A stretch of DNA of 60,848 nt, taken from Singulisphaera sp. GP187 (GTDB lineage: Bacteria; Planctomycetota; Planctomycetia; Gemmatales; Gemmataceae). The stretch lies in the NCBI GenBank assembly GCA_945905925.1, contig CAMDQN010000024.1, positions 1 through 60,848 of the forward strand, read 5' to 3'. Positions 11,262-14,991 of this stretch are shown here, in pieces. How positions within the stretch are numbered: the stretch's first letter is position 1; each line of letters opens with the position of its first letter. The position numbers were made by a program, and so were the translations under genes. The notes beneath the pieces are model-generated. The model did not search any database and was not told the origin of the DNA. It saw only the letters and a program-made list of their open reading frames with translations.

Positions 11262-11335
11262 TGAGTGATGAGTGATGAGTAAAAGGCGAAGGCCAGAGGC
11301 ATTTAGGCCTCTGGCCTTCGCCCTTTACTCATCAC
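11252..11335. terminator. Bidirectional terminator-like palindrome with TGATGAG tandem, spanning two stop codons
   Basis: Arms 11272-11300 and 11307-11335 pair over 29 nt with one mismatch around a six-base loop (ATTTAG). The inner part is GGCGAAGGCCAGAGGC and its complement, flanked by AAAA/TTT. Four tandem copies of TGATGAG occupy 11252-11279. The stop codon of the WD40 gene (11259-11261) lies in the tandem, and the stop codon of the converging DUF3472 gene (11332-11334) lies in the right arm. This placement suits a shared terminator for convergent genes. Confidence 0.85.
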
Positions 11336-12186
11336 TCGATCTTGGGCAAGTCCGCGGGCGGCTTCGCGTCGTTCTTTTCCTTGTCGCGCGCGATTAGCTC
11401 CTTCAACTTCGTGGTCTTGTTCTCGATGTCGCCGCCAGTCGAGAGGAAGTAGTGTCCCGCAGTCACGCCCGCGTCGATGTTCAGCACGGGGTTCGCGTCC
11501 GCGGTGAAGCGTGCCTTATCGAGCGGCACCCACGCGCCTTTCGCGGGCTTGATCCAGCCGTTGCCGAAGGTCGCGCGTCGCTCTTTCGTTGTGGACACCT
11601 TGTTTCGGCGGAAGTCTTCGACGAACGAGTAGCAACCCTTCAGTAGATCGCCTTTTGTAATCGTCGAGAACGTGACCAGGTGCTTCCACTCCTTCTTTTC
11701 GGGTACGAAGAAGTGACCGCTGTATGCGGTGCGGGTGTCGCCGTCGGGCTTCGCGGTCACGAGAAACCGGTACATCGTGCCTGGTTTCCACTCGTAATCG
11801 AAGAACGACTGCCCGCCGGTGCCCTCGCCGCCGAACCGCTGTACGCGAACCGCGGTGTCCTTGTGCAGCATCTTCACGCGCTTCGTTTCGTCCACTTTCT
11901 TGGGGTCGTCGCCGCTCGTCGGATCCCACACGGAGAAAAGCACGAGTTTCTTGCCGTTCGCGAGTTCCTGAATTCCGAAGTACCCTTTGCCCCACCCCGC
12001 GGCCATGAAATACGTGCCGTCCGAAGATTTCTCGACCGTCATTTCGTTGTAGAAAGCGACCCCTTCGGGTGCCGGGTAACTGAGGTGTACGGATCGGCAC
12101 GCGATGCCTTTGAGCTTCTCGTCCGCCGGAGCGGAAGCGATGACGAGTGCGGCGAGCGCGAGGGCGGCGATGGTGATGCGTGTCAT
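11332..12186 (-). CDS. Secreted DUF3472-family protein
   Basis: A 284-residue protein with a signal peptide (MTRITIAALALAALVIASAPA, cleavage near residue 21). The body matches the DUF3472 pattern: SVHLSYPAPEGVAFYNEMTV, YFMAAGWGKGYFGIQEL, VLFSVWDP, then a beta-rich region with FGGEGTGGQSFFDYEWKPG, YRFLVTAKPDGD and FSTITKGDLLKGCYSFVEDF. These domains are beta-sandwich modules often found in proteins that act on or bind carbohydrate; no catalytic residues are assigned. The exported product probably sits in the periplasm or at the cell surface. It converges with the WD40 gene and lies downstream of the TIGR03067 gene on the same strand. Confidence 0.88.
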   Translation of the reverse strand: MTRITIAALALAALVIASAPADEKLKGIACRSVHLSYPAPEGVAFYNEMTVEKSSDGTYFMAAGWGKGYFGIQELANGKKLVLFSVWDPTSGDDPKKVDETKRVKMLHKDTAVRVQRFGGEGTGGQSFFDYEWKPGTMYRFLVTAKPDGDTRTAYSGHFFVPEKKEWKHLVTFSTITKGDLLKGCYSFVEDFRRNKVSTTKERRATFGNGWIKPAKGAWVPLDKARFTADANPVLNIDAGVTAGHYFLSTGGDIENKTTKLKELIARDKEKNDAKPPADLPKIE

Positions 12187-12278: not shown

Positions 12279-12704
12279 TTACTTCGCCTTTTCCTTCTTC
12301 AGTTCAAAGTAGAAGCCGGTTTTGCCGTCGAAGTCTTTCGGCCGATTCTCTTTATCCAGCGAGTAGGCCAGTTTGACCATGTCGCCCTTCACCTCGACGA
12401 TGCCCACGGCCTTCGAGCCTTTCGTTCCGGCCGGTCCTTCGAGGATTTCCATATCGATCGTGACCGGGTTCACCTTCGCATCGATGATCTTGTAACTCAT
12501 CACGAACGTGATCTCACCGCCCTTGATCGTGAACTTGTCGGCGGTCGCGGTGTATTCCGCCTTCTTCGCGGTGTCGTCCACGGCGGCACCGTTCTTCTTG
12601 CCGGTTACCAGAGTGTACTTGCCGGTCAGGTCCGTCTGCTCGTTGGCGCGCGCTACCATTGCCATGCACGCGACCAATCCGACTGCCAGTGCGAACGTCT
12701 TCAT
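12279..12704 (-). CDS. Secreted TIGR03067-type planctomycete protein
   Basis: A 141-residue protein with a signal peptide (MKTFALAVGLVACMAMVARA). The mature part (LTGKYTLVTGKKNGAAV, then ADKFTIKGGEITFVMSYKI, IDMEILEGPAGTKGSKAVGI and LVKLAYSLDKENRPKDF-like text) follows the short beta-barrel pattern of the TIGR03067 family, which is strongly expanded in Gemmata and relatives. Function is unknown; a lipocalin-like binding role is possible. An ATCAGG/GAGGG stretch precedes the ATG. Confidence 0.85.
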   Translation of the reverse strand: MKTFALAVGLVACMAMVARANEQTDLTGKYTLVTGKKNGAAVDDTAKKAEYTATADKFTIKGGEITFVMSYKIIDAKVNPVTIDMEILEGPAGTKGSKAVGIVEVKGDMVKLAYSLDKENRPKDFDGKTGFYFELKKEKAK

Positions 12705-12886
12705 CCTGATCCCTCACCAGTTCCGCCGCTCAACTCCAGACCGTCTGAAGGTGCGGTGCATGTGATTGTAGGTTCATGTTCTCACCGGGGAATGGTACGC
12801 TGAAAGCGGCATGGCACCAGTTACACCGCGTCGGTAGAATCGTCACCACGGGTAGAGCTTCGCCATCTTCCTTAGTGAGGAGCGCC

Positions 12887-14161
12887 ATGGTAACGGCGAG
12901 TGTACGACGAGCGGTTCTGGTGATCGCTGCGTTCGCGTTCGCGGTCCTGATTAATGGGCAGACACGCGCGGCCGACGACGAGAAGAAGGACCCGCTGCGT
13001 GCGGAGCTACTGAAACTCAACTCCGTCACCGGCGACGACGCGCAGCGCACCAAATTGATCGCGTTGACGAAGGACAAGGACAAGGCGAAGAAGTTGGTGA
13101 CCGAGGCCGGCAAGATGCTGAAAGAGTCGAAGGGCAAGGAGAACCCCTTCAACTTCAACGGCGGGATGATGGTCGCGAGGCTCGCTCACTTCAACAAGCA
13201 GTACGAGGTTGCCGAACCGTTCTACGAATTCCTCATCGAGGCCGCGACCAAGCTCAAGAGTGGCACCAAGATGGTTCAGGCCTACGAAGGCCTGATCGAC
13301 ATGTATTGGGACAACAAGAAGTACGCGATGGTATCGGAGACGTGCCAGAAGTTCGTCGATGACATGGGACCGGAAGAGTATGAGAATGCCAAGCCGTTCA
13401 TTCTTGAACGGCTCGTGCAATCGACCGCCAAGGAAGGGAAGTTCCCCGAGGCACTGAAACTCGCCGATTTGCTCATCGAGGCCGACAAGGGCGGCTGGTA
13501 CTTCTTCCAACTCAAGGGCTGGGTTCTGCGCGAACAGGGCAAACTACCAGCCGCGATCCAAGCGTACACCGCGTCGCTCGAGAAGATCGAGGCGAGCAAG
13601 ACCCTGAAGGGCGAGGCGAAGGACCGGTTCACGGACCGGACGCGGTACATCCTCACCGGGCTGCACGTTGATAACAAGGACGTCGAGAATGCCGCGAAGG
13701 AACTCCAGACCCTCATCAAGCGGAACCCAAACAATCCCACGTACAAGAACGACCTCGGGTTCATCTGGTGTGACAACGACATGAAATTAGAGGAGTCCGA
13801 GAAGCTTATCAAAGACGCCATCGACCTCGACAAGAAGGAAAAGGAGAAGTTCAAGAAGGAAGGGAAGATCGACGAGGTGAAGGCGAACGCCGCGTACCTC
13901 GACAGCCTCGGGTGGGTGCTGTTCAAGCAGAAGAAGTACAAGGAGGCGCTCGGGCCGTTGAAGGAAGCTGCGGCCGACGACGAGGACGGTAGCCACCTGG
14001 AAATCTGGGACCACCTCGCCGACTGCCACATGGCGCTGGGCCAGAAGAAGGAGGCCATCGCCGCGTGGGAGAAGGCGCTCAAGCACGAAGACCTGTCGAA
14101 GCGCGACGGCGAGCGCCGCCGCAAGGTGAGCGAGAAACTGAAGAAGGCCCGCACTGAGTAG
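12887..14161 (+). CDS. Secreted tetratricopeptide-repeat protein
   Basis: A 424-residue protein. ATG 12887 is preceded by GAGGAG and followed by a signal peptide (VRRAVLVIAAFAFAVLINGQTRA). The rest is alpha-helical with TPR-like pairs, for example EVAEPFYEFLIEAATKL, AMVSETCQKFVDDMG, LPAAIQAYTASLEKI, DVENAAKELQTLIKRNP, EALGPLKEAAADDEDG and EAIAAWEKALKHED. Lysine content is high. The second half contains the motif NPTYKNDLGFIWCDNDMKLEESEKLIKDAIDLD, followed by AYLDSLGWVLFKQKKYKEAL. This pattern is typical of TPR proteins that count repeats before a final helix. Probably a periplasmic scaffold; partners unknown. The frame opens at 12776, but the extension is not protein-like. Confidence 0.9.
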   Translation: MVTASVRRAVLVIAAFAFAVLINGQTRAADDEKKDPLRAELLKLNSVTGDDAQRTKLIALTKDKDKAKKLVTEAGKMLKESKGKENPFNFNGGMMVARLAHFNKQYEVAEPFYEFLIEAATKLKSGTKMVQAYEGLIDMYWDNKKYAMVSETCQKFVDDMGPEEYENAKPFILERLVQSTAKEGKFPEALKLADLLIEADKGGWYFFQLKGWVLREQGKLPAAIQAYTASLEKIEASKTLKGEAKDRFTDRTRYILTGLHVDNKDVENAAKELQTLIKRNPNNPTYKNDLGFIWCDNDMKLEESEKLIKDAIDLDKKEKEKFKKEGKIDEVKANAAYLDSLGWVLFKQKKYKEALGPLKEAAADDEDGSHLEIWDHLADCHMALGQKKEAIAAWEKALKHEDLSKRDGERRRKVSEKLKKARTE

Positions 14162-14166
14162 GGGAA

Positions 14167-14270
14167 GAAGAGAAGGGGAGAAGGGGTGAGGGGAGAAGGG
14201 GTGACAAGACAGAGCGAAGTGCCTTCGTCTTGTCTCCCCTTCTCCCCTCACCCCTTCTCCCCTTCTCTTC
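14167..14270. repeat. Long near-perfect palindrome, 44-nt purine/pyrimidine arms
   Basis: Arms 14167-14210 and 14227-14270 are complementary at 43 of 44 positions around a 16-base loop. One arm is almost pure purine (repeats of GAGAAGGGG), the other almost pure pyrimidine. It begins six nt after the TPR gene stop and ends 13 nt before the next ATG, so only the AAAAGGAG ribosome binding site separates it from the following gene. Confidence 0.92.
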
Positions 14271-14283
14271 AAAAGGAGTTCCC

Positions 14284-14991
14284 ATGCTCGACGGCTGGAC
14301 GCAAACCACCATCGGCACGAAGTTGGCCGATGTGTTCAACCCGGATAGCTCACTTTCGCTGGGCGTTGTCTACCTCCACTCCCTAAGCGAAGAATCACCC
14401 GCGATCGATGCCACCTTCACAGCGGGGCTGCGACAGCACCGACTGCGGTGTGTCGCGCCGCACGGCGGTCAGTGTTGGTGGGCGGATCGCGTCTGTCCAG
14501 ACTTCGACGCGGAACTCACGCCGGAGCGCTACTTACTTGATGTGGTCGTGCCGTGGGCGGAAGCCGCGTGGCACCTCGGTTCGCGCGCGATCGCCCTCGC
14601 GGGCTTGGAGATGGGCGGGCAGGGTGCGGTGCGGCTCGCGTTCAAGCACCCGGACCGGTTCGCGATCGCGGGGAGCATCTCGGGCGCCTTCGACTGTCAG
14701 GACTGGTACGGTTTGGGGACGCCGCTCGACGAGATGTACGACAACCGCGAGCGCGCCCGTCAGGACTCGGCGGTGCTTCACATCGACGGGCACCGTTGGC
14801 CACCGCACCTGTGGTTCGGCTGCGCGCCGACCGATGCGGCGTGTTACCGCGGCAACGACCGACTGCACGAGAAACTGGCCGCGATGGGTGTTCCGCACAC
14901 CGCGGAGTTGGAGGCACGCGGAGAGATGACGGGATCGATGCTCACGTTCGTCGCGGCGGCGCTGGCGAAGGAGTCGAAGCGGTTGATGTGA
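14284..14991 (+). CDS. Alpha/beta-hydrolase-fold (esterase D-like) protein with Glu at the nucleophile position
   Basis: A 235-residue protein started at ATG 14284 behind AAAAGGAG. The fold is recognisable from the strand VVYLHSLSEES, then the nucleophile-elbow region IALAGLEMGGQGAVRLAFKHPDRFAI and GSISGAFDCQDW. In the esterase D/S-formylglutathione hydrolase family the elbow is G-x-S-x-G-G. Here it is G107-L-E109-M-G-G, so the catalytic Ser is replaced by Glu. The expected His near the C-terminus is also not obvious (ELEARGEMTGSMLTFV). It may be a non-catalytic hydrolase homologue or use other chemistry. A strong palindrome lies just upstream. Confidence 0.85.
   Translation: MLDGWTQTTIGTKLADVFNPDSSLSLGVVYLHSLSEESPAIDATFTAGLRQHRLRCVAPHGGQCWWADRVCPDFDAELTPERYLLDVVVPWAEAAWHLGSRAIALAGLEMGGQGAVRLAFKHPDRFAIAGSISGAFDCQDWYGLGTPLDEMYDNRERARQDSAVLHIDGHRWPPHLWFGCAPTDAACYRGNDRLHEKLAAMGVPHTAELEARGEMTGSMLTFVAAALAKESKRLM

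Follow-up and report, generated by a model that had tools for sequence, protein, structure and literature searches.

The window, i.e., the whole stretch of DNA that was analyzed, comprises 60,848 nucleotides of Singulisphaera sp. GP187 and carries, on its forward strand, a gene for a homologue of the PF00756 esterases (Table 1). Its open reading frame starts with ATG, AGGAG is located just 5' of the start, and the translation of 235 residues includes ALAGLEMGGQGAVRL. Directly upstream on the same strand lies a gene encoding a TPR-repeat protein, and both genes are separated by an inverted repeat for which an RNA hairpin of -101.5 kcal/mol (z -11.5) is predicted. The arm motif of this repeat, GGGGAGAAGGGGTGA, is present in 27 copies in the genome (reversed control 0), with facing copies on five contigs, and the pattern of its inner stem was found in the genome only at this site. 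On the far side of the TPR gene an ORF of 141 residues adjoins, for which Pfam gave no match at E 0.01 and relatives were found at 15 of the other neighbourhoods. It is followed by a gene for a DUF3472 protein (E 3.6e-92), the second in this direction, and a DUF3472 gene is also nearby in three close relatives.

Table 1. Coordinates of the genes, residues and further features at the locus (positions in the window).
Feature	Position	Strand	Details and basis
DUF3472 protein gene	11332..12186	-	second gene beyond the TPR gene
141-aa ORF	12279..12704	-	adjoins the TPR gene
TPR-repeat protein gene	12776..14161	+	directly upstream of the esterase homologue, same strand; apparent signal peptide, by eye
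Inverted repeat	14167..14270	.	between TPR gene and esterase homologue; 44-nt arms, 98% complementary, 16-nt spacer
AGGAG	14274..14278		just 5' of the ATG start
Glu-type esterase homologue (PF00756)	14284..14991	+	235 aa; ORF translation and Pfam match
Cys64	14473..14475	+	usually Ser among Ser-type relatives, whereas 36/39 Glu rows have Cys; alignment
Glu109	14608..14610	+	codon GAG, nucleophile position within GLEMGGQG; translation and alignment, Glu in 14/14 clade rows
Asp184 (PTD)	14833..14835	+	aligned with the triad acid, kept; alignments with Ser relatives and solved esterases
Cys187	14842..14844	+	Trp in 107/113 Ser rows, Cys in 29/39 Glu rows; alignment
Shortened stretch, about residues 205-215	14896..14928	+	Ser relatives have the catalytic His loop (GGHxW) here; alignment

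The protein belongs to PF00756 (Esterase), with a score of 32.5 bits over residues 81-167, above the gathering threshold of 22. In NCBIfam no model scored above its own cut-off, and the equivalog model of S-formylglutathione hydrolase, TIGR02821, gave 16.7 bits against a cut-off of 281.7. Among solved structures the best match is the esterase 4rgy (phmmer 9.7e-7; family profile 5.5e-14), and the family profile additionally matches 4rot, 2uz0, esterase D and antigen 85. An α/β-hydrolase fold may be expected from sequence homology to these solved folds; an AlphaFold2 model built from three sequences (the window protein and two relatives) reached a mean pLDDT of 43 and was unusable. In the phmmer alignment E109 falls on the nucleophilic serine of the solved esterases (GLSMGG of 4rgy), and the reading of the earlier note, that Glu replaces the nucleophile Ser within the elbow GLEMGGQG, is thus borne out by translation and alignment. 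Its further statement that all other fold features remain holds for Asp184 and fails for the catalytic histidine: the loop carrying it is shortened, no counterpart of the His is present, and it is absent from all 14 Glu-bearing sequences of the window's clade. Compared with an active serine hydrolase, the window protein lacks both Ser and His and retains the acid Asp184, a position that is Asp in 13 and Glu in one of the 14 clade members. Without the serine no acyl-serine can form, and without the histidine an acyl-glutamate would lack the usual route of turnover, which suggests that the Glu form is not an ordinary ester hydrolase. The possibility that the gene is a recent paralogue of an active esterase was rejected, as the next match in its own genome reaches only E 0.001 at 31% identity, and no second close copy is encoded in this genome.

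In the family to which the window belongs, 95 genomes were searched, one per species, which yielded homologues in 70 of them; the top match per genome went into an alignment of translated sequences. The nucleophile position in these 70 rows is occupied by Ser (31), Gly (21), Glu (14), Ala (2), Asp (1) and Asn (1). All Glu rows stem from the genus of the window, for which 19 genomes were covered (14 Glu, 3 Gly, 2 without a match). In a tree of 69 rows, from which the nucleophile and His columns were removed and the fragment L077 was excluded, the 14 Glu rows form exactly one clade (support 99/94), nested in a clade of 21 rows (100/98) whose remaining seven members carry Gly and lack the His; some long-branched Gly rows change their place from tree to tree. 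The alignment of homologues, proposed earlier as a check, thus shows the Glu to be conserved in every member of the window's clade. A single-strain mutation or a sequencing error among homologues having Ser, which the earlier note had named as the refuting case, is rejected: Ser homologues do exist, but Glu is fixed across 14 genomes of the clade and also arose independently elsewhere.

Pairwise identities inside the Glu clade range from 54 to 93%, its Glu codons are GAG (8) and GAA (6), and 73 of 235 columns are invariant despite identities down to 54%. The invariant columns near the elbow and the WW loop encompass H32, W65, W66, R69, G107, M110, G111, G112 and R117, which, as read from the alignment, may line the pocket. 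The median dN/dS (NG86) is 0.22 in the Glu clade (80 of 91 pairs with dS < 2) and 0.25 for the Ser forms (343 pairs), and the window gene compared with the 13 other Glu rows gives 0.10-0.44 (0.19-0.26 for the three nearest). The Glu clade is under purifying selection, with dS being high in many pairs and the constraint by dN/dS not tighter than in the Ser forms. The three Glu pairs closest by dS show dN/dS of 0.19-0.69 and the closest two Ser pairs 0.07-0.10, and considering these high single-pair values and the high dS a partial relaxation in some members of the Glu clade is possible. The window's clade thereby corresponds to a pseudoenzyme in the sense that catalytic residues are lost while the gene is maintained. 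The alternatives of the earlier note, a pseudoenzyme or a new reaction using the Glu, are partly supported, in that the protein is no longer a serine hydrolase and is nevertheless maintained; it may be non-catalytic or may carry out a new reaction. As a whole the observation of a Glu-for-Ser esterase homologue is partly confirmed.

A class-wide profile search covered 248 genomes and found the gene in 150 of these, nearly always with one match per genome at E 1e-20. From outside the family 100 of the 101 matching genomes were fetched and read, and the last one came from a search of a second family (170 genomes, 143 with a match), which also added 34 further sequences; 15 of 30 second-family loci were skipped as duplicates of rows in the set, and only part of the remaining matches was read. 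Row L290, a distant generic esterase, was dropped, leaving 204 rows that do not constitute a full census: 113 Ser, 45 Gly, 39 Glu, 3 Ala, 2 Asp, 1 Asn and 1 unreadable. All 113 Ser rows possess both the His and the Asp, and the commonest form of this mostly single-copy Planctomycetia family, within which the window gene descends, is an intact Ser-Asp-His enzyme. The His is absent from all 39 Glu rows and kept in 7 of 45 Gly rows, one of three Ala rows, one of two Asp rows and the single Asn row. As Gly rows with His exist and Glu rows with His do not, the Ser seems to have been lost first and the His later. Asp184 is missing in six of the 39 Glu rows, one of these having Glu instead. The Ser codon is AGC in 28 of the 31 Ser rows of the window's family, the Gly codons are GGC, GGG or GGT, and the Glu codons outside the family are GAG (10) and GAA (7), which fits a route AGC>GGC>GGG>GAG with one base changed per step, a path that the codons would allow. 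The family thus offers a natural series from enzyme to non-enzyme, comprising intact Ser forms, some Gly forms with His and Asp, and Glu forms without His, and its intact and altered orthologues lend themselves to side-by-side comparison in standard assays.

The replacement by Glu is not restricted to the window's genus. A second large Glu clade of 19 rows was found in another planctomycete family (L223-L230, L232, L233, L235, L236, L238 and six second-family loci), in which the His loop is kept and the His itself is replaced by Tyr (9) or Phe (10). In a tree of 168 rows Glu must have been gained or lost at least five times and the Ser/non-Ser state must have switched at least 11 times; in an earlier tree of 109 rows these numbers were 2 and 12, respectively. 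A tree constrained to unite the two main Glu clades is worse by 121 lnL and is rejected (p-AU 1.2e-30) in an AU test on 41 hand-picked rows with columns 64, 109, 187 and the His removed. A third Glu group consists of four rows of one genus and is marked by Thr193 and by Lys135 (4 of 4 rows); it may be part of the second clade, in which Lys135 is present in 19 of 19 rows, and this Lys does not occur in the window's clade. L215 and L234 appear to be additional single origins, their placement in the tree being weakly supported. Glu therefore replaced Ser at least twice independently, perhaps three or four times. The same swap in other planctomycetes points to a conserved, repurposed protein and away from a mutation or an error, and its recurrence argues that the replacement is useful, beyond being merely tolerated.

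Taken together, the window protein is probably a former esterase whose Ser-His site was dismantled and that now acts as a repurposed pocket protein binding a ligand. According to this proposal the ancestor would have been an α/β-hydrolase esterase with Ser-His machinery, whose Ser was presumably lost via Gly, followed by Glu in the window's lineage, and whose His may have disappeared afterwards. The vacated site would have been refilled by a fixed carboxylate, Glu109, together with Cys64 and often Cys187, and the pocket would have Glu109 close to the oxyanion hole and bind a small molecule akin to the substrate of the ancestral enzyme. That the pocket is maintained is argued from the purifying selection and the conserved columns at the elbow and the WW loop, and the binding role itself is favoured by analogy only. 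Ligand binding is ranked before new chemistry involving Glu, Cys and Asp, and this before a scaffold function.

New catalysis, with an active site newly formed from Glu109 and Cys64 and/or Asp184, is considered unlikely; it could take the form of a Cys nucleophile with the Glu as base, of two carboxylates acting as acid and base, or of a Glu-Cys metal site. It draws on two companion cysteines. Cys64 is present in 36 of 39 Glu rows (13/14 and 19/19 in the two main clades) and in both Asp rows, compared with 6 of 113 Ser and 6 of 45 Gly rows, and Cys187 in 29 of 39 Glu rows (7/14 and 18/19), compared with 2 of 113 Ser and none of 45 Gly rows. In the tree of 41 rows Glu, Cys64 and Cys187 need two changes each, i.e., two unrelated Glu clades acquired the same changes. 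Asp184 is retained in 13/14 and 19/19 rows of these clades, and a conserved Asp184 beside newly fixed Cys residues could equally mean a new reaction; the Lys135 of the second clade also speaks for it. However, the parallel was spotted post hoc and is suggestive but statistically marginal: the number of conserved columns that changed in both clades, Glu109 included, gives hypergeometric p 0.03, 0.09 and 0.05 at 80%, 85% and 90%, column 64 lies outside the conserved set at the 85% and 90% thresholds, and the shared changes include one that is only Val88 to Leu. Changes to Cys at position 64 are also seen elsewhere. Furthermore, seven of the 14 rows of the window's clade lack Cys187, L215 and L234 have Glu and neither Cys, Asp184 is not universal among the Glu rows, and Lys135 is a feature the window's clade does not share. 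That two lineages rebuilt a dead serine-esterase site alike, via Gly, with a Glu elbow, Cys64 and often Cys187 beside Asp184, and that these residues act together, appears quite improbable; if true, it would constitute a new active or metal-binding site on the α/β-hydrolase fold in which the positions of nucleophile and base are exchanged, with Glu at the elbow and Cys on a loop.

A pure scaffold, with an irrelevant pocket plugged structurally by the Glu and a function that resides on the surface, e.g., together with the TPR gene product, is judged decidedly unlikely as well. The gene order speaks for it: within the family a TPR gene immediately precedes 27 of the 35 non-Ser forms, compared with one of the 31 Ser forms (66 of 70 rows with a readable upstream region; Fisher 2.5e-10). 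The inactive relatives DPP6 and DPP10 are precedents with a protein-modulating role (PMC4350108). However, this linkage rests on about two phylogenetically independent pairs (among 6 pairs, on average 1.7 agree with it and 0.0 contradict it), and three of 13 testable Glu rows lack it. The TPR protein seems to be exported, judging by eye from its signal-like N-terminus, the esterase homologue has no such N-terminus, and the strong hairpin lies between the two genes. The high conservation of the columns at the elbow and the WW loop likewise speaks against an irrelevant pocket. TPR matches are present in 94 of the 95 family genomes at E 1e-15, some of them distant. A causal role of the linkage in the loss of Ser was dropped, considering the few independent pairs and the absence of a TPR neighbour from all 13 non-Ser rows among 40 loci checked outside the family. 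A decaying gene or a sequencing or assembly error is extremely improbable: long-branched Gly and Ala rows suggest real decay in some lineages, but here the frame is open and preceded by a ribosome-binding site, dN/dS is well under 1 for most pairs, and the 14 of 14 clade genomes with Glu refute an error.

The reading as a repurposed binding protein can be set against known systems. The esterase D, antigen 85 and feruloyl esterase group of PF00756 belongs to the same sequence family, with the window protein scoring above the gathering threshold, and its active esterases possess the Ser and the His that are both absent from the window's clade. MPT51, a secreted, non-catalytic mycobacterial protein, is a relative of antigen 85 from the same superfamily that was matched in the PDB searches, its direct sequence relation to the window protein being weak. 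The inactive S9B α/β-hydrolase peptidases DPP6 and DPP10 carry Asp712 and Gly651, respectively, in place of the catalytic Ser, DPP10 keeps the elbow conformation, and the roles of both are described as unrelated to catalysis (PMC4350108). In analogy, an acidic residue or Gly also dominates among the planctomycete non-Ser forms. In contrast to the Glu form, which is bacterial, recurrent and has Glu, not Asp, these are animal membrane proteins of another family, and DPP10 retains the His and the Asp, of which the His is lost in the window's clade. The gibberellin receptor GID1 is a hydrolase turned ligand receptor that lost its catalytic His (PMC3531792, PMC11294565); it differs in being a plant protein related to hormone-sensitive lipases that retains Ser and Asp. 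In dienelactone hydrolase Cys123 and Glu36 both act in an α/β-hydrolase active site (PMC4108320); there, the Cys is part of a Cys-Asp-His triad, whereas the window protein has the Glu at the elbow and no His. It is thus already known that proteins of this fold can be inactive and that Gly or an acidic residue can occupy the nucleophile position, and a bacterial family with recurrent replacement of Ser by Glu was not found among the open-licence literature matches listed. The Glu-for-Ser feature described here is real, conserved and evolutionarily repeated.

The neighbourhoods of the intact forms may give a hint on the ancestral substrate. In 110 neighbourhoods, lutA (CCG domain) is located directly downstream of 16 Ser forms and two Gly forms with His, in several loci followed by lutB (LUD domain; TIGR00273 for L057). 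These 18 loci belong to Gemmataceae and Gemmatales, including L057:5045-8096 and L107:6105-10284, and a lut neighbour was found in none of the 35 loci of the neighbourhood set from outside the order. At the threshold used, a LutB homologue was found in none of the 14 Glu genomes and in 26 of the 95 family genomes, i.e., 21 with the Ser form, two with Gly and His, one with Gly without His (a distant LutB, 44%) and two without the esterase. Ten Ser-form genomes lack LutB as well, and 59 of the 95 genomes have LutA-like matches at E 1e-30, with an identity of only about 30% in many cases. From the lutA and lutB neighbours, the intact enzyme could have a role linked to lactate or a different 2-hydroxy acid; given the Ser genomes without LutB and the loci outside the order, lactate would be no more than a candidate for the ancestral substrate. 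A weak lutA match at L076 (25%, other strand) was excluded from the count, and in one more Ser form, L040, lutA lies about 1 kb off.
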